Positions 6,088 to 63,077 of a stretch of DNA of 64,000 nt are shown here, piece by piece. This DNA comes from a virus. Every line of letters starts with the position of its first letter. Positions within the stretch are counted from its first letter, which is position 1. A model generated the notes under the pieces. It saw nothing but the letters and a program-made list of their open reading frames with translations, searched no databases and was not told where the DNA came from. Location: positions 1-64,000 of the IMG/VR virus record IMGVR_UViG_3300027759_004177; one strand, given 5' to 3'. The position numbers and the translations under genes were made by a program.

Positions 6088-7296
6088 TTAAAATGGCCAT
6101 TTGGCTTTTGTTGCAACGTCCTCGGGCACAGATGCTACAATACGATCCATTGCAATTGCCGGATCCCATTCCCGGCAGAACTTTGCACGATTGGCACGGC
6201 CTTCCTTGGTGTCGGGATCATAATCAATCCAACTAAAGTCTGTGCCATTGCAGTCGGGGCAATGATCGTTGTATTCTTCATCTTCTACACGGTCTTCACT
6301 CTTACCTATCCATCCACACTCTTTGTTATCGCAAATGACATTGGGTGGCTCGGGTGGTTGATTGACCCATGAGCTTGTGTCCCAGTTGTAACCTGACCAT
6401 GACACAACGCCATCCTGTCTAACTGGATTAAATTTTCCGTATTCCCAGTCACCAAACTCCTTGCCATCCCAATACAGGCTACCATAGGTGCTGCCTCCAC
6501 CATAGTTGCAACTATAGTATCCTGGAATTGTGGGTTTTTGTTTCTTGAACTTGAATGTCTCTGAACGTTCCCACTCACTTGGACTGGTTCCGAATTCGGG
6601 ATGACCCCAATCTTTTTCTTCGGGTTCATAGCGTTCCCAGTTGCCTTCATCGTCGGTGATCCGTGCCATGGTAAAGTCTGAACTCTTACCATCGGTGCTG
6701 CCACCAAAGTTATCAATGTCTTCACCGTTATATGTTAGACCAGTAACAATATCTTCGCCATCGAACTCTTCGTAGTGCAGTTCCAGTTTGGTGATATCAA
6801 ACGGTTCAGTAAGTTCGATCTCGCCTTCAAAGAAGGTGCCTTTTTCATTGCTAGTTCCAACAAATACGATCTCGCCCTTCTTGCGGCTTCCAATCCAAAC
6901 TTCGTCGTCGCAACACCACTCTGGGCTGTCTTCGGATGCACCATCACAGTCATCAAATGACTTTTGAAACACAGTTTCGCCCGTTTCATCTTCAATCTGA
7001 ATTGTACCAGCATCGCGACTTACACCATTGGTGTGTCCCATATCATCGCACTCGTACCAGGATCCTGGTGGGAATGGCAACAGGTCTTCGTCTAGATCCA
7101 TGTCTTCACAGGCATCATAGTTCCAGGCGATGTCACTGAGATCAACTTGCTTATTGTTACAATAATCCCAGACTTCCTGGGTGGTTGTGCCCATAACACG
7201 TTCGCCACCGTAGCCCCACATGCTAACCTTATAGGTGCGTGGTGTAAACTTAAGAACAGCTACTAGTTCTTCTGCTGTAATATCTTTGGTTGTCAT
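6088..7296 (-). CDS. Acidic hypothetical protein with C-terminal zinc-ribbon-like Cys pairs
   Basis: This protein of about 402 residues is very acidic and rich in Trp, Gly and Asp. It carries a Cys pair set near the C-terminus (ICDNKECGWIG and HCPDCNG) resembling a zinc ribbon, plus a CDD/CCDDE cluster in the first third. No catalytic family is recognised. The start at 7296 is chosen because the upstream glycosyltransferase stop is immediately before it (TAAAATG); an ATG 18 bases upstream is possible. Confidence 0.65.
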   Translation of the reverse strand: MTTKDITAEELVAVLKFTPRTYKVSMWGYGGERVMGTTTQEVWDYCNNKQVDLSDIAWNYDACEDMDLDEDLLPFPPGSWYECDDMGHTNGVSRDAGTIQIEDETGETVFQKSFDDCDGASEDSPEWCCDDEVWIGSRKKGEIVFVGTSNEKGTFFEGEIELTEPFDITKLELHYEEFDGEDIVTGLTYNGEDIDNFGGSTDGKSSDFTMARITDDEGNWERYEPEEKDWGHPEFGTSPSEWERSETFKFKKQKPTIPGYYSCNYGGGSTYGSLYWDGKEFGDWEYGKFNPVRQDGVVSWSGYNWDTSSWVNQPPEPPNVICDNKECGWIGKSEDRVEDEEYNDHCPDCNGTDFSWIDYDPDTKEGRANRAKFCREWDPAIAMDRIVASVPEDVATKAKWPF

Positions 7297-7297
7297 T

Positions 7298-8491
7298 TTA
7301 GTATTTGCTTTCATGAGTGTGTTTACGATAATCAGTGCTCATACGGCGCCACTGCTCTCCTTTACCTTCTAAAATATCTACAATGCGATCAATACAACCG
7401 TCGGTCCAATCACTAATACGTCCTTGGTTAGGATGGGGATCAGCCAACAAATTGACCAGTTTGGTTTCGGCATCATCTAACGACCAAGGAATGTAAAGTC
7501 GTTCAGGATCGTTAGCAAAAGTTTCAGGGAAACTACGATAAGCAGGATAAAGCACGTTGGCTCCCAGAGTGTCTGCTTCTGAAACGGTGTTTGATACCCA
7601 GTCTTGCAGAGCACAATTAAACAACACACGAGTATCGTTAAGTAGATGATAGTAATCATTTTTTTCCAAATCCTCATATACTGTTAGCCAACCGCGAGCC
7701 TGTAGGTCTCTAGTACGAGCCATGTAGCTGTCATTGTTTGACTTTAGTTTAGCACCACTGAAAATAGCAAACTCCACTGGAAAGTTGTTGTGATTACGAT
7801 GCCATTGTTCAATTAAATCCATAAAGAAGTCTGGTTGCTTTTCCTGATCCCAACGTGCTGCAAATCCCACGCGATATGCACGATCCTGGAATGGTTTTAG
7901 TTCGCCCTCGATGCGACCACGCACTTCCGATTTGCCAAATGCCAAGCCCGAAATGTTATAGATGTTGCCTTCCCAACCGGCCACCTTCATGTGCATGACC
8001 ATTTCTTCATTTGATGCTAGAATAATGTCCGCAAAACTATCCACCATTTTTTCATAAAGCCCCATCCACTTCTGCATACCCCACACATGAACGAAATCAT
8101 CAGGGTCAATACTTTGTGCAAGGCAACGAACGGCAATGCGAGGACGATGAGCAGGATCGATTTGATCCATAATATAAGGTAAGCTCTCGATACCGGGTTG
8201 AAACATGTCTTCAAAATAGATAACATCTTCATTTGTAACTTCTCCCTGTTTCATCTTGCGTACAAGATTCATTAGTTGGCTCATACCAAAGTAAGTACGG
8301 CCATGTGCATCTAGCACTTGTCCTGTGACAATGGCTTGATCATTGCTGAGTGTTTCACCTGTAACAAGTTCGTACGTGATGCCACGACGTTTAAACACAG
8401 ATTCATTCCAGTCTTGTAACTGTAATGTGTATCTTGCTTTGTAGGGCTCTAGGCCCATGTACCATAGTTTACGCATCTTATAAAGCCTCAT
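7298..8491 (-). CDS. GT-B-type glycosyltransferase
   Basis: The protein of about 397 residues resembles family 4-like phage glycosyltransferases. The C-terminal half has a Rossmann-type segment with YRVGFAARWDQEKQPDFF (a donor-binding region) and later NDTRVLFNCALQDWVSNTVSEAD, where the acidic residue would bind the sugar nucleotide. It probably transfers a sugar to DNA, capsid or surface glycans; the acceptor is unknown. The start MRLYKM is favoured because it overlaps the upstream stop as TAATG. Confidence 0.7.
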   Translation of the reverse strand: MRLYKMRKLWYMGLEPYKARYTLQLQDWNESVFKRRGITYELVTGETLSNDQAIVTGQVLDAHGRTYFGMSQLMNLVRKMKQGEVTNEDVIYFEDMFQPGIESLPYIMDQIDPAHRPRIAVRCLAQSIDPDDFVHVWGMQKWMGLYEKMVDSFADIILASNEEMVMHMKVAGWEGNIYNISGLAFGKSEVRGRIEGELKPFQDRAYRVGFAARWDQEKQPDFFMDLIEQWHRNHNNFPVEFAIFSGAKLKSNNDSYMARTRDLQARGWLTVYEDLEKNDYYHLLNDTRVLFNCALQDWVSNTVSEADTLGANVLYPAYRSFPETFANDPERLYIPWSLDDAETKLVNLLADPHPNQGRISDWTDGCIDRIVDILEGKGEQWRRMSTDYRKHTHESKY

Positions 8492-8751
8492 TAGTCTCTG
8501 GGTTTCCAATTCGTATCACGTGGTTTAAACGTGGTACGATCACGCTTGGGAGTACGCCACTGGTCCCATGGTTCACGCCCACGTACCATTTTCATGTATT
8601 CACCGTAGGGTGTGCGTTCGTTGTAAAGATTTTTCTCATCAAACGGATAACCATAGTCTCGACAAAAACGCTCATAGCGTTCTAGGTCTTCAAAGATAGC
8701 GACCACTTCGGGTTTGAAACGAAGATACTTCTTTAGCCATTCTTGGGCCAT
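8491..8751 (-). CDS. Hypothetical 86-residue basic protein
   Basis: This small Arg/Tyr-rich protein (LERYERFCRDYGYPFDEKN) has no recognised domain. It is coupled to the glycosyltransferase by TAATG. A good ribosome-binding site (AAGGAG) precedes the ATG. Confidence 0.6.
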   Translation of the reverse strand: MAQEWLKKYLRFKPEVVAIFEDLERYERFCRDYGYPFDEKNLYNERTPYGEYMKMVRGREPWDQWRTPKRDRTTFKPRDTNWKPRD

Positions 8752-8762
8752 GTTACTACTCC

Positions 8763-9212
8763 TTAAATTACAATTGATTGGGAAGGGCGAGTGAGGTTAT
8801 AATGAATCAAGCAACCGTTCTCGCCATCTTCGGCCACTTGAATTGAAATATTACGATTGGGATATCGATCTGCAATCTGTATGTAAAGATCGTCAGCGAT
8901 CATTTCACACGATTTGAAATCCAGTTCTAAAACGGTATTCTGACCGTTATACAGCGACTCGAGCCATCGTTTGAACTGGATGAACTCGATGTCCCGGTCA
9001 TTGTGGAACACATCGATTGACACCCGGAAATGAAATATATGGCGATGAGGATTAGCAAGGAACGCGACATCATACTCTCCTGCTGTATTTAGCCGGGGAT
9101 CAGTGGCCGCCGCTGGGTAGCAATGGATACCTTCTTTGCGGAAGGTGACCCAGATTCTGCGCCGGGCAGCTGTTTTAACTCTTTCAATTACTGCTCTTTG
9201 TTCTTGATTCAT
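8763..9212 (-). CDS. QueD/6-pyruvoyl-tetrahydropterin-synthase-like T-fold protein
   Basis: The 149-residue protein shows a T-fold order: an EGIHCYPAAATD strand, PHRHIFHFRVSIDV with His residues where QueD has its zinc His-x-His, IEFIQFKRWLESLY, a helix SCEMIADDLYIQI, and a final strand VAEDGENG with the Glu that binds the pterin in the family. The Cys and Asp-His catalytic residues of true QueD are not clear, so it could be a derived paralogue. Context with FolE and the DpdA-like gene suggests the preQ0 pathway. The protein looks conserved among T4-like phages (from memory). Confidence 0.5.
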   Translation of the reverse strand: MNQEQRAVIERVKTAARRRIWVTFRKEGIHCYPAAATDPRLNTAGEYDVAFLANPHRHIFHFRVSIDVFHNDRDIEFIQFKRWLESLYNGQNTVLELDFKSCEMIADDLYIQIADRYPNRNISIQVAEDGENGCLIHYNLTRPSQSIVI

Positions 9213-9213
9213 T

Positions 9214-10314
9214 TTATGCCTTGAGCATGTTAATAAGATTAGGGAAAGTTTTTGTAAAATCTAAATTTCTGCGTTTATCTATTGTGTTTAACGAGTATAC
9301 AACATTGTCTATATTTTTGTCAAATGGTTTGGTAAGAAATTCTGCACAATTATGTAAACTGTTGCCAAATGTTGTGTTTGGATTATATCTATTTAGATCG
9401 CTGATTAAATCACCTAAAATTTTATCACCAAAATTTCTAGCGTCCAAATATTTTGGTTGTGTCAAGTAATGTACTGCTGTGCGATCAATATCTACGCCCA
9501 AATCAATAAGATATTCCCCAGTTTCAACAATGTTGGTAGAGAGCAAGAAATAATTCATTGTTACACCAATTTTCTCCTGGGGCCATTGTTGAATCAATTG
9601 TCGAAGGTTCGTTTCAAACTCCGACCATACTCCTGGATGCCTGATATACTCAAATTGAGCACCTGTGGCTTCAACACTGATTTCCCATTGCACATTGTTA
9701 AACTGTTTTATTTTAGAATAAATTCCAGTTTTTAAATTTGAAAGATTAGTGGTGATGCGTACCAAGCAATCAGGATTGGCCGCATATAATCGATCCAACA
9801 GTTCGCCATTTTCTTTAATCATCAACGGTTCGCCGCCGGCCAAGTATACTTCTTGAAGTCCCGCCAGTTTATCGTGTGTGTAATCTTTCAATTGATCAAA
9901 TGTGGAACAATCGGCATTGACAGTTTGTCCCATTTCAGCCGCCCACAAACTGCTAAAGTATGGACCACAATAAACACAGGCATAGTTACAGACGTTTGAC
10001 CAGCGTAGATCCAGTTGTGTCAGTTTATGCGTACCATCGTAATCAATGTCAACGTCCTTGTGTAATTTGAGCTGGTATGCTCGATTACTAAACTCAGGAT
10101 CTACAGTTTCTCTTTGCTCGCATAGCTGACAGCTTTTGGGCCAGTGACCTGATTTTAAACTGTTTCTTATTTGTTGATTTTGTGTGTTGTCTAATATTAC
10201 AGCAATTGGTGAAGATTTTAAGTTGCCCAGGGTTTCTTGGCTCATGGCACAATTTCTAACAGAACCATCGGGATTAACAGCGACGCCAGTCCACGGAAGC
10301 GGACAAGCGATCAT
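9214..10314 (-). CDS. Twitch/SPASM-type radical SAM protein
   Basis: The 366-residue protein starts with MIACPLPWTGVAVNPDG and an early Cys pair (CQLCEQRE). It has the radical SAM motif CNYACVYC after LDLRWSNV and a GGEPL motif. The early Cys-rich segment before the SAM barrel is common in phage radical SAM proteins. The start is set at 10314 by ATGA overlap with the upstream gene. It is not an obvious QueE, which is shorter and lacks the extra Cys region. The substrate is unknown. Confidence 0.7.
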   Translation of the reverse strand: MIACPLPWTGVAVNPDGSVRNCAMSQETLGNLKSSPIAVILDNTQNQQIRNSLKSGHWPKSCQLCEQRETVDPEFSNRAYQLKLHKDVDIDYDGTHKLTQLDLRWSNVCNYACVYCGPYFSSLWAAEMGQTVNADCSTFDQLKDYTHDKLAGLQEVYLAGGEPLMIKENGELLDRLYAANPDCLVRITTNLSNLKTGIYSKIKQFNNVQWEISVEATGAQFEYIRHPGVWSEFETNLRQLIQQWPQEKIGVTMNYFLLSTNIVETGEYLIDLGVDIDRTAVHYLTQPKYLDARNFGDKILGDLISDLNRYNPNTTFGNSLHNCAEFLTKPFDKNIDNVVYSLNTIDKRRNLDFTKTFPNLINMLKA

Positions 10315-10826
10315 TTTATAACTTCGTCTTGTGTGTATTTGGACCAATCCGTAAACTTAGTACGATCCTTTAAGTCATGTAACTGGTGACACCATACTCC
10401 GGGATTGGTTGCTGCAAAGTCTTTGTCATCCAGCTTTATTGTGGCGTTGTATCCCAAAAGTTGCAGATATGGTAGTTTAACACTGATCATTGGGATGAAA
10501 TTGTTGTACTCGATCAAACAGCCCTGGGCTAGACCTTCTGCACTAGACACATCCAAGTCCAAAGTACACAATAGACCTCGTTGTAAACATGAGGTGATCA
10601 TGCCTTCCCATTCACGCCAAGTATCGCCATCGTCGACGTCAGGATTGGGAAAACTTTGGTTGGCACCAAAATAAACATGGTTGCAATTATTGTCCATGAC
10701 CATATTGATAATAACGCCGGCGTCTTGTACACCAACCACAAATAAAGTTTTATGTCCAAATGCCGGGCTATGCTCTACTTCCCGGCCAACAAAGAAATTT
10801 ACTTGTTCGTGTCCTGCTCTGTTCAT
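10311..10826 (-). CDS. Conserved phage protein of unknown function
   Basis: The 171-residue protein contains NFFVGREVEHSPAFGHKTLF, HVYFGANQSFPNP and YNATIKLDDKDF. I recall similar proteins in T4-like cyanophages without assigned function. The alternating beta and helix pattern suggests a small TIM-like or Rossmann fold. It is coupled on both sides to the radical SAM and transglycosylase genes, so a role in the same base-modification pathway is possible. Confidence 0.6.
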   Translation of the reverse strand: MNRAGHEQVNFFVGREVEHSPAFGHKTLFVVGVQDAGVIINMVMDNNCNHVYFGANQSFPNPDVDDGDTWREWEGMITSCLQRGLLCTLDLDVSSAEGLAQGCLIEYNNFIPMISVKLPYLQLLGYNATIKLDDKDFAATNPGVWCHQLHDLKDRTKFTDWSKYTQDEVIK

Positions 10827-12385
10827 TCTGCCTCCAGTGCGTCTAGTTTAGTTTGATCAAATTCTTGTTCTGTTGTTTCTTCTACAATTTCTACATCATC
10901 TTCAAAATAAAACAATTTACTAAAATTGGCACTACCGTTAACAGCTTTCTTGCCTTTGAATCCTCTAGTACCAACAATTTCACACCAATACCCGGTATCT
11001 CCTTTATACATATCAATGATCTCCATCGATGTTGCTTTATCTGGGGCAGCAAAGATTGCTTCTACGATGTCTTCAAAATATTCACCACCCGGGCCTGAGC
11101 TACGCATCATGGCAGGATGAGCACCGGCATCAAATCTACGATTGGCTTCTTGTACCGCTGTCAAATGCATCCATACATTATGACCCATTAACAATGCGTA
11201 ACTAAAACTATCCCATGACGTTTTGCCTTCTTTGCCATTCTTGTTTACATCGCCTGGTTTGTAGTAGCAAATGTCTTTCATTTTAAACAAGTTACTAAGT
11301 GGACTGTCTTCCCAACGTGGATACTTGCCATCCGCTACCACTCCGTCACTCCACTTGCGTGTGTCTGTTGCGTACTTTTTGTCATCTGCACTAGGAGCCA
11401 TCCTGTATGACCACTTGCCGTTGTCGGGAAACACATTTTCAAAGTATACCTGTCCGTTGGCAGTTGCCAAGAATGGACTAGCACAATCAAAGCTGATAGT
11501 GAAACTAGGATTTACATATTTTCTAACGTTTCGTTGTATTACAGTTAACAGTACTGCCCACTCTAGTTTGCTTGTGCCCAAGAAGTGCATCCAATCGTGA
11601 ACACCTTCTTGTAACAAGTTATCATGACGTAGAGTAACTAAACGTCTGAGAATCAACTCTACGTCACACATGTTTTGTCCACCCATGGCCCATCCGTTAA
11701 AGTGTGTGTCTGGATGTTGCACAGGATCACAATAGTGTTTCATGGTTTCGTACCAATCGTCGGCCTCAATGTGGTTGGCACCTTGTAATACATTTAAGAT
11801 CTTAACACCACCGTTCTTGATACCTTTACGATTGGTCATAAAGTAATCATTGTTGTATTTGGTAGCATCAACAGCTTCCTGGTGCGTACTGATACCACAT
11901 TTCTTACCTGCTTCTTTATCTAGTGCAACCCAGGTTGGAATATCAAGGGTCATACCGTAGTCAGCAATGCCATCAAGCCAAGCCAAAACCTGTTCTCGTT
12001 TTTTCTGTGCTTTGGGACATCCTGAATTGGCCTTCCAATCGCCTTCCCATAATCCTTTGGCAATCTGGAATCCACCAGAGTCGCCTAAGATCAGTGTGTT
12101 GGGATCACGATTGCGTACCATATCCTCTGACCAGTCCTGTTTGGCAAGGTCGAGGTTTGCGTGGCCACCGGAGTAAAGAGACCACTTGTAAGGAAACAAC
12201 GCTTTTTGATCATTCAACCAGTTGAGTTGTTCCATGTCTGTTATGCCTTGCGGAAAACGTGTAGGATCCACATAAGGTCCGGCAGGATCACGTTGCTTGC
12301 CTATGAACGTGGCATAGAAACCACTGATGGCTGGAAGGAACACAGCATAGTCTGATTGTTTGGCAGTTAAGTTATCTTGGCTCAT
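10823..12385 (-). CDS. tRNA-guanine transglycosylase / DpdA-like transglycosylase
   Basis: The protein of about 520 residues shows TGT signatures: LILGDSGGFQ with Asp102, Ser103 and Gln107, LNVLQGAN, a GWAMGGQ loop, MHFLGTS, and SFDCASP with Asp300 as the expected nucleophile (compare MFDC in TGT). TGT exchanges guanine for a 7-deazaguanine in tRNA; the DpdA paralogues do this in DNA, and phage DpdA proteins commonly travel with FolE and QueD. The length is greater than bacterial TGT (about 380), favouring DpdA. The C-terminal part lacks the usual C-x-C-x2-C zinc site. The start at MSQDN is preferred over an ATG 51 bases upstream that lies deeper in the sulfotransferase gene. Confidence 0.7.
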   Translation of the reverse strand: MSQDNLTAKQSDYAVFLPAISGFYATFIGKQRDPAGPYVDPTRFPQGITDMEQLNWLNDQKALFPYKWSLYSGGHANLDLAKQDWSEDMVRNRDPNTLILGDSGGFQIAKGLWEGDWKANSGCPKAQKKREQVLAWLDGIADYGMTLDIPTWVALDKEAGKKCGISTHQEAVDATKYNNDYFMTNRKGIKNGGVKILNVLQGANHIEADDWYETMKHYCDPVQHPDTHFNGWAMGGQNMCDVELILRRLVTLRHDNLLQEGVHDWMHFLGTSKLEWAVLLTVIQRNVRKYVNPSFTISFDCASPFLATANGQVYFENVFPDNGKWSYRMAPSADDKKYATDTRKWSDGVVADGKYPRWEDSPLSNLFKMKDICYYKPGDVNKNGKEGKTSWDSFSYALLMGHNVWMHLTAVQEANRRFDAGAHPAMMRSSGPGGEYFEDIVEAIFAAPDKATSMEIIDMYKGDTGYWCEIVGTRGFKGKKAVNGSANFSKLFYFEDDVEIVEETTEQEFDQTKLDALEAE

Positions 12386-56901: not shown

Positions 56902-57143
56902 TTAAACTTTAAACTAAACAAGGTAGCATCTCGTGCTTCTGTAAAGTAAAAGGCAGCAACTTCGTCAAACATAGCACTGACATCTGAAGTTTCCACCAAC
57001 TCTGTCCAAAGCAAACTTAGGTTCTGTTCTTTGCACCAACGTTTCATTTTCCACATCACAAATGCAGGATCTCCAATTAACACTCGATGACATTGATCAA
57101 GTACCGCTTGCGGCGGAGTAAGGTCGGCCTTGTTTATATACAT
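56898..57143 (-). CDS. Member of small F-x-L-x-W tail family
   Basis: The 81-residue protein ends AAFYFTEARDATLFSLKFK, the family tail. Its last gene partner upstream is the halogenase, with which it overlaps by one base. The function is unknown. Confidence 0.6.
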   Translation of the reverse strand: MYINKADLTPPQAVLDQCHRVLIGDPAFVMWKMKRWCKEQNLSLLWTELVETSDVSAMFDEVAAFYFTEARDATLFSLKFK

Positions 57144-58720
57144 TATCGGTTGATGTGTTTGATCAATTCCCAGTGTGTTGGTACTAGGTCTAGCACACCA
57201 CGGGCCATTTCATCACGGTGTTTATAGAACAACCGAGCACGTGGTAACAGGGCTTCCGTGATTGGACGTGTTGGACAATCCGCAAATGCCCTCATGGTGG
57301 TGATAGTCTGTGCCCAGTCGTACTTGTTATAACGTGTATGGTCGAAGTCTTTCTCACGTCTGTAGATATCGCTAAAATGACGACCAAACCAGCCGTGTAC
57401 CATATCAACAGCTTCCTCACGTTTGGCGGCTTGCTCACGCCAAAACTCTGTGTCTGAGCGTTCTGTCAAGGCATAGTGTGCCCACAGGAAGTCTCCAGTA
57501 ATTTTAACTTCTCTGCTCATTAAACGACTTAGTACACGATCCTCGCCGTCGTTCCAATGGCCATCGTGCTTCTTAAGTACTGCCACTACTAGTTCATTGA
57601 TAAGTGTAGTAAAGCTAATGCTAGTAGCTTCCAAAGGTTCTAGGAAGTTTGAGCTCAATCCACAGGCGATCACGTTGCGATGAGCACTACGATCCAAGAT
57701 ACCATTATCAAACTTTAATGTAACTTTGTGATCCCAAGTCATTCCTAGATTCTGCCAGTAAGCACCTAGCTCTTCTACAGCTTGTTCTGTGGTAGTGTAA
57801 CGTGTATCATAAACGTAACCCGAACCCATGTCGTCACGCAAGGGAACTCGCCACGACCAGCCATGCTTGAATGCTGTGGCGTGTAGGTTGGGTACGCAGA
57901 ATTCTTCTTGTTTGCCTTGATAGTTTACACGTCCGCCAACGGCGTTTTTACAAGGTAGTCGATCTTCGTAACTGACCCATTTGGCCACGGGTCCAATTAG
58001 TAAACGCTTAAAACCTGTGCAGTCAATGTACAAGTCTGCGGTGTGAGTTTCTCCGCTATCGTCAACAATGCCAGTGACTTCTTCACGTTCGTTACGATCA
58101 ACTCGTACAATATGACGCTCTAAGGTACGAACACCGTTGGGAACGGCCACTTTGTCTCGAATAGTCTGTCCAACTTTGAATGCGTTGATGTTGTAAGCAT
58201 AGCCCGGCACACGACTTGAATACTGATGTCCCGCTAGATCTCTATGAGCACGACGATTTTGTACTAAATGATATGTGTCTGACGCATACTGATAGTAATC
58301 CGCTTCTGTAATGATGCCACGTTTAAGCATTTCAATCCAGTAGTCAGCTATGAGTACAGAGTCATCCTTGGCACAACTAACACGCTTGCCAAATTCATCT
58401 ATACTGTGGTTAATACCCTTTTCTGTAACAAAGTCGCCAAACCCGTGCCAGCGAGTGTCTGAACCTGTGCGCCACCCATCAAAGGTGACTCCGTATTTGA
58501 ATGTACTGCCCGATTCACGCATCCACACATCTTCTGATAATCCCATTTTTTCTAAATGATTACGGAACTGTGGTACTGTGGTTTCGCCTACACCAATGAT
58601 GGGAACTTCTTTACTGTGTATTACAGTAACTTCTATTCCAGGCAGTTGACTACTTAAAAAGCCAGCACTAAGCCAGCCCGCGGTTCCGCCGCCTACGACT
58701 ATGATTTTTTTAACTTGCAT
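57143..58720 (-). CDS. Flavin-dependent tryptophan halogenase-like enzyme
   Basis: The 525-residue flavoprotein has GGGTAGW (10-16), the catalytic Lys75 in GSTFKYGV, the halogenase motif WSWRVP (288-293) and SSNFLEPLEATS with Glu364 in the expected place (a Ser is replaced by Ala next to it). Such enzymes use FADH2 and halide to halogenate an aromatic ring. Related halogenases exist in marine cyanophages (VirX1). The substrate is unknown. A FAD reductase is not seen and may come from the host. Confidence 0.85.
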   Translation of the reverse strand: MQVKKIIVVGGGTAGWLSAGFLSSQLPGIEVTVIHSKEVPIIGVGETTVPQFRNHLEKMGLSEDVWMRESGSTFKYGVTFDGWRTGSDTRWHGFGDFVTEKGINHSIDEFGKRVSCAKDDSVLIADYWIEMLKRGIITEADYYQYASDTYHLVQNRRAHRDLAGHQYSSRVPGYAYNINAFKVGQTIRDKVAVPNGVRTLERHIVRVDRNEREEVTGIVDDSGETHTADLYIDCTGFKRLLIGPVAKWVSYEDRLPCKNAVGGRVNYQGKQEEFCVPNLHATAFKHGWSWRVPLRDDMGSGYVYDTRYTTTEQAVEELGAYWQNLGMTWDHKVTLKFDNGILDRSAHRNVIACGLSSNFLEPLEATSISFTTLINELVVAVLKKHDGHWNDGEDRVLSRLMSREVKITGDFLWAHYALTERSDTEFWREQAAKREEAVDMVHGWFGRHFSDIYRREKDFDHTRYNKYDWAQTITTMRAFADCPTRPITEALLPRARLFYKHRDEMARGVLDLVPTHWELIKHINR

Positions 58721-60230: not shown

Positions 60231-60259
60231 ATTATACATTAAAAAGATTTACTGGTCAG
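60231..60259 (-). promoter_or_regulatory. sigma70-type promoter, leaderless
   Basis: CTGACC, 17 bases starting AGTAAATCT, TATAAT on the minus strand, followed by AAGGT and ATG. Confidence 0.6.
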
Positions 60260-60674
60260 TTTTTTTGAGTGTTTCCCACATCTTCTTTTGTTCCAAAAAC
60301 TTTTGTTCGAGTTTGTGATAGTGTTTGGCTGCTGCCTTGAGTTCTGCAAACTCTTGTTCAAGTTCGATATTTCGGTTGATGCGTGTGGGAATCATCAGTT
60401 CGTTCTTGACGGCCAGCATGGTTTCCTTGAGACTTAGGCCATCGATCACCAGGTCCTGTTCGGTAATCTCAACTTTGGGTCGTTTTGTATAATATGAATC
60501 TACTACCCAGGTAGGGTTAGTGGTAGCAGCAGTGGTGTAGGTAATTCCGGCACTACCACCTGTAATAGTTATATTAGAGTAATTGCTACCCGAATAAGCG
60601 GTTGAATAGGTGGGACTTAAAGTATACCCGCCGGTTGATATTTTTACTGAATTTTGTTTTTTTGTTTTTGCCAT
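60249..60674 (-). CDS. Hypothetical structural-type protein
   Basis: The 141-residue protein has a Ser/Thr/Gly/Tyr-rich first half (GGYTLSPTYSTAYSGSNYSN), then a charged coiled-coil half (LELEQ-type, ELKAAAKHYHKLEQKF). It looks like a small virion protein. Its N-terminal gene end borders the porin terminator. Confidence 0.55.
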   Translation of the reverse strand: MAKTKKQNSVKISTGGYTLSPTYSTAYSGSNYSNITITGGSAGITYTTAATTNPTWVVDSYYTKRPKVEITEQDLVIDGLSLKETMLAVKNELMIPTRINRNIELEQEFAELKAAAKHYHKLEQKFLEQKKMWETLKKTDQ

Positions 60675-60710
60675 AAAAAAGCCCTATACCGTAGTATAAG
60701 GCCTTTTAGT
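60671..60710. terminator. Bidirectional rho-independent terminator after porin gene
   Basis: A hairpin with arms GCC-TATAC and GTATA-GGC is flanked by A6 on one side and TTTT on the other. It ends porin transcription and may isolate it from the 60249 gene. Confidence 0.7.
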
Positions 60711-60725
60711 TACAATGTCAAACTA

Positions 60726-61877
60726 TTAGAATGAATGTTTCATTCCAACTGACAATGACTTATTATCTACTCCTGAAGTCATTGCAGCTGCGGATCCGTA
60801 AACAGCAGTCATTTTGGATACACCGCTGTTATCGGTCGTGGCCAACATGCTGTACAAACTGGTACGCTTGCTTAGATCATAGTTGACAGCCAAACCGGTT
60901 GTGCTACTCTTGTTGGCAGTGGTATACTTGTCTTGTGCGACTGTATACTCAACACCAACCCACATAGGAGCAGTCACTTGATATTTGACGCCAGCTGTGG
61001 TAATGTCAAGATCGTTTCCTACTCGAGTAGTGAACAGGTTGTTATCAAATCTACTCATGGTTTTGGCAGCACTGATTTTGAATTTGTCAAATTGGTAACT
61101 GGCACCAAACACAGAATTACGTAGTGCTGTGGCACCAGTAGTGTTGGCCACAGTACCATATCCAGCAGATGCTGTAAATCCACCTTGAACGTATCTTAGT
61201 GTGGCTTCCCGCATGATTCCAGCATTGATTGTGGTGGCACTACCAGATCCTGGTGATGTAAACAAACTTGCTGTCAATCCTTTGAACGCAGGAGATGTGT
61301 AGCCGATACCGTTGCTGAAAATTTGTGGTGTTGTGCCGCTGGTACTGGCTCCGCCGATGTTGGTTCCTGCATCCTGACCTGTGATCACATTGGTACCATT
61401 CAAACGACTACCAAGTACCCAGTAGTTGATCAAGCCCATACCATTTACTCCCAATGCGTCGTTGCCGACTACTACAGCGTACAATGGATTGATTTGACGA
61501 CCAATTTTTATTTCACCCAATGAATTTTTTGCACTGATGTTGGCGGCACGGTTAAACACTTCGGCTGTGCCTGTGGTACTTTGTGCAGCTCCAGTGGTGC
61601 TTGATCCAACTGCGCCGGTGCCCAGTGACACCTGTGATTCCAAGTTGAAACCAATGGCCAAACCACCACCTGCATCTTCAGTTCCGCGAATACCAAACCT
61701 ACTGGTACTCCAACCATGAGAATTTAAACCTGATTGATTTGCTGTGGAACCGCTTGCTTGTTGTATTGCGTAATAACTTTGGTCTAGATTTCCATAGACA
61801 TTCACGCTGGATGCCTGTGCTTGAACTGTGGTACTAAACACGCCAGCCAGAAGAGCCGACAGTAGTAATTTTTTCAT
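60726..61877 (-). CDS. Burkholderiales-type Gram-negative porin
   Basis: The 383-residue protein starts with a signal peptide MKKLLLSALLAGVFSTTVQA cleaved near AQA-SSV. It then has the opening SVNVYGNLDQSYY, the motif GIRGTEDAGGGLAIGFNLES, long Ser/Thr/Gly strands, and a C-terminal Phe (SVGMKHSF) for BAM insertion. It fits the betaproteobacterial trimeric porins. An AAGGAAAAAC site and a TAAATA motif precede it, and terminators bracket it. A porin gene in a phage is very unusual; it may change host permeability or receptor exposure. Confidence 0.9.
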   Translation of the reverse strand: MKKLLLSALLAGVFSTTVQAQASSVNVYGNLDQSYYAIQQASGSTANQSGLNSHGWSTSRFGIRGTEDAGGGLAIGFNLESQVSLGTGAVGSSTTGAAQSTTGTAEVFNRAANISAKNSLGEIKIGRQINPLYAVVVGNDALGVNGMGLINYWVLGSRLNGTNVITGQDAGTNIGGASTSGTTPQIFSNGIGYTSPAFKGLTASLFTSPGSGSATTINAGIMREATLRYVQGGFTASAGYGTVANTTGATALRNSVFGASYQFDKFKISAAKTMSRFDNNLFTTRVGNDLDITTAGVKYQVTAPMWVGVEYTVAQDKYTTANKSSTTGLAVNYDLSKRTSLYSMLATTDNSGVSKMTAVYGSAAAMTSGVDNKSLSVGMKHSF

Positions 61878-61927
61878 GTTTTTCCTTTTTGATTTTAAAT
61901 ATGAAGTTTTGTGAAACTTGCTAGTGT

Positions 61928-61933
61928 TATTTA
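61928..61933 (-). promoter_or_regulatory. T4-like late promoter motif (GTAAATAACAC) of porin
   Basis: TAAATA core about 50 bases upstream of the porin ATG inside a CTAGT...ACTAG dyad. The gap 61878-62015 also has TATAAT about 100 bases upstream and a small CCCAA...TTGGG hairpin at 61966-61981. Confidence 0.4.
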
Positions 61934-61965
61934 CTAGAAGTGAGTTGACCTGCAAAAATAATTAT

Positions 61966-61981
61966 CCCAATCATGCTTGGG
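61966..61981. repeat. Small inverted repeat in porin leader (CCCAA-N6-TTGGG)
   Basis: A five-bp dyad just downstream of a TATAAT box that precedes the porin gene. It could be an operator or weak attenuator. Confidence 0.35.
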
Positions 61982-62015
61982 TATTATATGCTACTATTAT
62001 GATATTGTTGGCTAT

Positions 62016-62390
62016 TTAGTTTGGGAGATCAAAATAGCGACGAGTTGTCAACAACCATCCAATTTGGTTAAAGTCCGACTCTACTTCTTCTGTCACATAG
62101 CTTTCTTCAACAAAGCCGGTAAAGTCTGTGCCTTGAAATCCGGTGCCTGAGCAGTACCAATCTATGTAACTGTCGTCTTCTCGGATGTCAGCTACAATGC
62201 TGGCCGCATAACGCCAGGTGCAGTCCCAATGTATATTTTTAAGTATACCCCAGACATCTTCAGGAACATATTCATTGTTGCAAAGTGCGGCATATAAATT
62301 TTGGGCATAGATTTCTTGCTGTCGTACTTTGGATATGATCCAATCTGTACTACGGATATCACGCTCAAGATTAAAAACTCTGCGACCCAT
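62016..62390 (-). CDS. Conserved phage protein, unknown function
   Basis: The 124-residue acidic protein contains QNLYAALCNNEYVPEDVWGI and WYCSGTGFQGTDFTGFVEES. I recall homologues in T4-like phages. A terminator lies just upstream. The function is unknown. Confidence 0.6.
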   Translation of the reverse strand: MGRRVFNLERDIRSTDWIISKVRQQEIYAQNLYAALCNNEYVPEDVWGILKNIHWDCTWRYAASIVADIREDDSYIDWYCSGTGFQGTDFTGFVEESYVTEEVESDFNQIGWLLTTRRYFDLPN

Positions 62391-62936: not shown

Positions 62937-63077
62937 ATGAAATCATTAATCACTTTAATCGCAACCGCTTTTGCTGTAACCGCTTTTGCTCAGGCACCAG
63001 CCAAAAAAGAAGAGCCAAAGAAAGATGCCCCAAAAGCTGAAGCTAAGAAAGAAGAGAAAAAAGACGCTAAGAAGTAA
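62937..63077 (+). CDS. Lys/Ala-rich periplasmic peptide with signal sequence
   Basis: The 46-residue product starts MKSLITLIATAFAVTAFAQA, a clean signal peptide with AQA cut, then a Lys/Glu/Ala/Pro-rich tail (APAKKEEPKKDAPKAEAKKE). A GAGG site precedes the ATG and a TAAATACATT motif lies about 57 bases upstream. It mirrors the protein at 33438. A strong terminator follows. Its function is unknown. Confidence 0.75.
   Translation: MKSLITLIATAFAVTAFAQAPAKKEEPKKDAPKAEAKKEEKKDAKK

Follow-up and report, generated by a model that had tools for sequence, protein, structure and literature searches.

The 64,000-nucleotide stretch of viral DNA analysed here (hereafter the window) carries, at positions 60726-61877 of the minus strand, a gene for an outer-membrane porin, and the question it raises is what such a protein does in a phage. 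The window spans the initial 64 kb of the 357-kb virus record IMGVR_UViG_3300027759_004177 (G000), which encodes the gp23 capsid protein, portal, TerL, gp43 polymerase, clamp loader and UvsX of a T4-like jumbo phage (PHROGs matches 138, 213, 36964, 262, 168 and 97). The nearest cultured phages by capsid protein were Vibrio phage 2.275.O (69%), Sinorhizobium phage Phosso (68%) and PA5oct (67%). A GroEL-type chaperonin gene is also present in the record (168340-169959).

The initial annotation, made from the letters of the window, had described a complete porin with a signal peptide and a C-terminal phenylalanine. This description was borne out. The coding sequence starts with ATG downstream of an AAGGA and specifies 383 amino acids, of which residues 1-22 (MKKLLLSALLAGVFSTTVQAQA; 61812-61877, minus strand) were recognized as the signal peptide by inspection, with a helix at residues 2-12 in the model; as in general porins, the protein ends in a phenylalanine, here within the tripeptide HSF. 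The Pfam Porin_4 profile matched it at 1.1e-35 (124.4 bits against a cut-off of 27) over profile positions 3-309 of 310. Omp32 was matched by sequence in the PDB (3.5e-14) and was also the solved structure closest to the predicted fold (3e-27). The AlphaFold model, built with 22 locus-derived relatives (mean pLDDT 73.6), predicts a 16-stranded barrel with short helices in the constricting loop L3. Eyelet-type residues are retained among 34 viral porins: R60 in 32, E80 and R110 in all 34. In Omp32 the eyelet arginines are R38, R75 and R133; R60 and R110 are present in the phage protein and Ile186 takes the place of the third (R133). Because only two of the three eyelet arginines are present, we filed the protein as a general porin and not as a member of the anion-selective Omp32 subtype. 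Omp32 is described as anion-selective and was solved with malate.

The porin had also been placed between phage genes, with an assembly join at its edges as the point to check. Both flanks are indeed genes of the 357-kb phage record, and the independent IMG/VR contig 3300032287_003317 (L002) is collinear with the window, with 95% identity along an 11.3-kb stretch that includes the porin and its two flanks and reaches the end of the window, so that no join lies at either edge. Downstream, a 141-aa gene with no assigned function (60249-60674, minus strand) begins immediately beyond the porin terminator and is retained as a neighbour both in L002 and in G448, the closest relative. Upstream lies a 124-aa gene, also with no assigned function (62016-62390, minus strand), which is a conserved neighbour in L002 and in G448 is found beyond a phosphoesterase-like gene. 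Between the window and L002 the porin shows 15 synonymous and 5 nonsynonymous changes (dN/dS 0.10), and TctC1, encoded 9 kb from the porin in a block that is collinear in both phages, has a dN/dS of 0.03. The porin gene is complete, is carried by a phage, evolves under purifying selection and belongs to the viral porin lineage described below. Divergence along the block is mosaic, dS ranging from about 0 to 0.83 in neighbouring genes. The high values, 0.83 in a tryptophan-halogenase-like gene (57143-58720) and 0.61 in the gene behind the porin (60249-60674), stand amid neighbours near zero, a pattern that suggests recombination. A 46-aa lysine-rich secreted peptide (MKSLITLIATAFAVTAFAQAPAKKEEPKK...; 62937-63077, plus strand) is identical in L002.

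Directly 3′ of the porin, an intrinsic terminator hairpin is followed by a U-run (60677-60706, minus strand; -18.5 kcal/mol, z -4.6) and is identical in L002, in agreement with the terminator claimed behind the gene. Overlapping it, a site scan found a sigma-70-like promoter that would read into the next gene (60693-60721, minus strand; TTGACA-17-TATACT, 11/12 match), in a region where promoter-like sites occur at chance level (7 seen, 6.9 expected). The 138-nt porin upstream region (61878-62015, minus strand) contains an AAGGA ribosome-binding site, GTAAATA (61928-61933) and TATAAT (61983-61988), and both TAAATA and TATAAT are retained in L002. It also holds a 16-nt dyad, CCCAATCATGCTTGGG (61966-61981), which is a perfect palindrome in L002; the interval originally annotated, 60671-61981, spans terminator to dyad. 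The proposal that the porin has its own upstream region with a late TAAATA motif and dyads therefore stands as far as the presence of the motif and the dyad is concerned, but its late-promoter part is weak: chance alone would put plain TAAATA in ~14 of the 149 upstream gaps of the carrier. The late-like motif enriched in the carrier is [AT]TAAATA (35 of 149 gaps, 9.7 expected), and it is absent from the porin upstream gap, where just GTAAATA occurs with TATAAT farther upstream. Late-promoter control of the porin is thus not supported. Since the CCCAA-N6-TTGGG dyad occurs once in the whole phage record, an operator common to the porin and the transport genes was ruled out. A search of Rfam gave no match.

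Viral relatives of the porin, sought in IMG/VR with a six-sequence porin alignment, are encoded on 50 contigs, and each of the 29 records checked whole carries exactly one. Uncultured-phage porins are also present in a structure library of viral proteins; a search of 50,697 phage records for relatives of the porin or of TctC found none. The porin of viral contig L025 is 50% identical (306 bits). The phage protein is like the general porins of the Omp32 type (Porin_4, PF13609; Comamonadaceae, Burkholderiales) in family, in its 16 predicted strands, L3 helices, eyelet Arg and Glu and C-terminal HxF, but it differs from them in being phage-encoded, in lying in a virus-only clade and in sequence, the best bacterial porin reaching about 31% identity by BLAST and 37% in the best profile match. 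The best porin in a sample of 399 Burkholderiaceae genomes scored 111 bits; none exceeded this in that sample or in a second one of 399 genomes of the order, with few candidates scored per genome, and no porin in the order sample was better than E 1e-28. A tree of 84 porins, built by a quick method and with some weak deep forks, placed the viral sequences in three virus-only groups (7, 15 and 10 members) and two singletons, giving 5 label changes, a number as low as which was reached in 0 of 500 shuffles. BLASTP and a tree had been suggested as a way to find the donor; the nearest relatives are viral, and recent capture from a sampled host was rejected for lack of a close bacterial relative in the genomes searched. 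The label "Burkholderiales-type" holds at family level, through the Omp32 and Porin_4 matches; a precise host clade is not supported. The porin family, and not sample metadata, points to a host that is probably beta-proteobacterial (Burkholderiales-like). On the same basis the porin-bearing contigs appear to come mostly from freshwater. Because none of 24 relatives selected by gp23 has a porin match over cut-off, we regard the porin as an accessory gene, and its being a core gene of the phage group is ruled out.

What the porin might serve is suggested by the transport genes of these phages. G000 encodes three TctC-type secreted binding proteins (70909-71871, 190105-191058 and 198613-199527), all matching this component of the tripartite tricarboxylate transporter over cut-off, as well as a full-length DctP-type protein without evident signal peptide (184349-185335) and a partial DctP (198018-198488). 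No TctA permease was found in the record, which leaves the tripartite transporter incomplete there, and the porin of G000 shares no operon with a transport gene. Beside the DctP-type gene lies another candidate outer-membrane barrel (183167-183655), whose OMP_b-brl match is below cut-off; in G018 and G033, DctP-type genes adjoin TctC.

Around other viral porins the arrangement is tighter in several clades. In L026, TctA begins 61 nt behind the porin, and 8 nt further on comes a secreted SBP whose TctC match is only weak. Spacers of 20 nt and 8 nt separate the porin from a TctC-like SBP in L041/L164 (a 316-kb T4-like phage record with gp23) and from a secreted binding-protein-like gene, overlapping a weak TctC match, in L034; in L072 the order is porin, 4 nt, a 190-aa gene, TctC. 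Elsewhere a conserved 179-182-aa secreted protein comes after the porin (the group of L043, L053, L060, L069 and L070), which in L070, where it was checked, is an OmpA-domain protein, or the genes that follow are enzyme genes unrelated to transport (the group of L056 and L065). Among 30 virus records with a porin, 8 encode TctA. When, among records of at least 90 kb, distinct porin-bearing viruses were compared with porin-less gp23 relatives, TctA or TctC was found in 8/11 against 3/16 (p 0.015), TctA alone in 4/11 against 0/16 (p 0.019) and TctC alone in 6/11 against 3/16, which is not significant (p 0.10); where both occur, the porin-Tct distance is shorter than under random placement (combined p 0.018), and all these tests, devised after examples had been seen and involving few viruses, mostly as fragment records, are supportive and not conclusive.

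We give roughly even credence to the reading that the protein works as a general diffusion porin like Omp32, made during infection and feeding solute uptake by phage and host. It draws on the intact Omp32-like fold, the retained eyelet residues and the low dN/dS of both porin and TctC1, and also on the three TctC and the DctP genes of G000, the porin-Tct adjacency in other phages and the TctA/TctC association. Counted against it are the absence from G000 of a porin-transport operon and of TctA, the p value for TctC alone, the different proteins at the same locus in G448 (see below), the OmpA-domain and enzyme neighbours in other clades, and Ile186. The host's Sec and BAM machinery would export the porin, which would provide additional diffusion pores through which small solutes, probably anionic ones such as organic acids, could pass. 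Periplasmic TctC-type, and perhaps DctP-type, binding proteins of the phage would catch these solutes and pass them to permeases, which would be the host's in G000 and partly the phage's own in TctA-encoding relatives. Overall, phage production would have more carbon or building blocks at its disposal. Among the three functions offered by the initial annotation (altered nutrient entry, a block to superinfection and replacement of a lost receptor), nutrient entry has the most support, all of it circumstantial.

The porin might alternatively act by changing the cell surface, taking the place of the host's outer-membrane proteins or crowding them out, which would keep a second phage from binding; superinfection exclusion has been proposed for lambdoid phage porins. 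We consider this unlikely, and keep it alive mainly because of what occupies the locus in G448 (374 kb), the closest relative, whose capsid protein is 94% identical. There the flanking genes are kept, and in place of the porin stand two tandem 183-aa secreted proteins (L267 10004-11168, corresponding to G448 168004-169168) and the phosphoesterase-like gene. With its own terminator in the window and different genes at this locus in the closest relative, the porin is cassette-like, as had been annotated. One of the 183-aa proteins matches the C-terminal half of the Porin_4 profile at a score exactly at cut-off; as this weak match is one of two tandem secreted proteins, a truncated porin remnant was ruled out. 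To judge by their size, they may be small barrels without a wide pore, in which case the conserved item at the locus could be an outer-membrane barrel and not a channel. The presence of a single porin in all 29 records and the OmpA-domain protein adjoining other viral porins also fit exclusion, whereas the transporter genes adjoining the porin in several viral clades do not. Loop conservation points the same way as the transporter genes: at 45-60% strand identity the loop/strand ratio was 0.85 in viral porin pairs versus 0.51 in bacterial pairs (p 1e-5, or 1e-4 skipping gaps), the opposite of an arms race, although the pairs are not fully independent and the bacterial ones may be paralogues differing in function, and at 60-85% viral and bacterial pairs were alike. 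The well-kept viral loops are suggestive, and speak mildly against an arms race on the porin surface. Elsewhere in G448, a 106-aa frame (L267 2311-2631; G448 160311-160631) has a local gp23 capsid match, 54% over 24 residues, far from the true capsid gene.

A further possibility, which we hold to be quite improbable, is that late production of outer-membrane pores or barrels strains the envelope and thereby aids release, setting the timing of lysis. A release-aiding role has been suggested for phage CsgG pores, and a curli operon is known from the phages Melnitz and HTVC008M (PMC9004378). G000 carries a curli-type operon with the same gene order as in Melnitz (CsgF, CsgG, curlin repeat, FecR, curlin repeat; 111089-116287, minus strand), in which CsgG has a C-terminal SH3-like extension; this is a neighbouring system and not the porin itself. 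In L070 the porin adjoins such an operon, a single cluster (7173-12171) comprising porin, OmpA-domain protein, CsgF, CsgG, curlin, FecR and a PstS-like binding protein. Against a role in lysis stand the conserved eyelet residues, the transporter neighbours and the lack of the enriched late-type [AT]TAAATA upstream of the porin. That the gene is a chance passenger or an assembly join, stemming from recent capture or misassembly of a host gene and without function, would suit its accessory distribution but is extremely improbable given the collinear L002 contig, the dN/dS of the porin, the virus-only clades and the absence of a close bacterial gene.

Phage-borne outer-membrane porins occur in lambdoid prophages, namely NmpC of DLP12 in E. 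coli and Lc of PA-2; these are enterobacterial porins of temperate lambdoid prophages and not of T4-like jumbo phages. In marine viral contigs an OmpL porin was found beside glnK-amtB (PMC8115048); it too is a virus-borne porin beside a nutrient transporter gene, but the porin was reported as Bacteroidetes-like, the contigs were short, the transporter is another one and no recurrent lineage was shown. A viral tctA on a SUP05 contig, identified by a domain match only (PMC4164917), likewise belongs to a virus-borne tripartite tricarboxylate transporter, but no porin or binding protein was reported with it. Viral porins and viral tctA are thus already known, each reported singly; in the literature searched, outside which most subscription journals and preprints lie, we found no account of T4-like jumbo phages having a recurrent porin lineage with Tct neighbours.

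We propose tentatively, with rather less than even confidence, that freshwater T4-like phages of Burkholderiales-like hosts carry their own trans-envelope import line, consisting of the porin, TctC/DctP and in some of them TctA, as long-lived viral gene lineages, whereby infected cells would be reprogrammed to use organic acids as food. The nutrient genes of phages described so far mostly act inside the cell, or are isolated components of the periplasm or inner membrane, PstS and AmtB for example. If the proposal is true, lytic phages also govern host outer-membrane traffic, with effects on infected-cell metabolism, solute entry and superinfection. A family of ~390-aa proteins with a PP-loop-like motif (SGGADGNT) and no Pfam or PHROG assignment recurs in several viral contigs next to genes for TctC, TctA and CsgF, and has members in G000 (116392-117558, 194166-195461 and 199538-200725) and in L164 (1431-2615).
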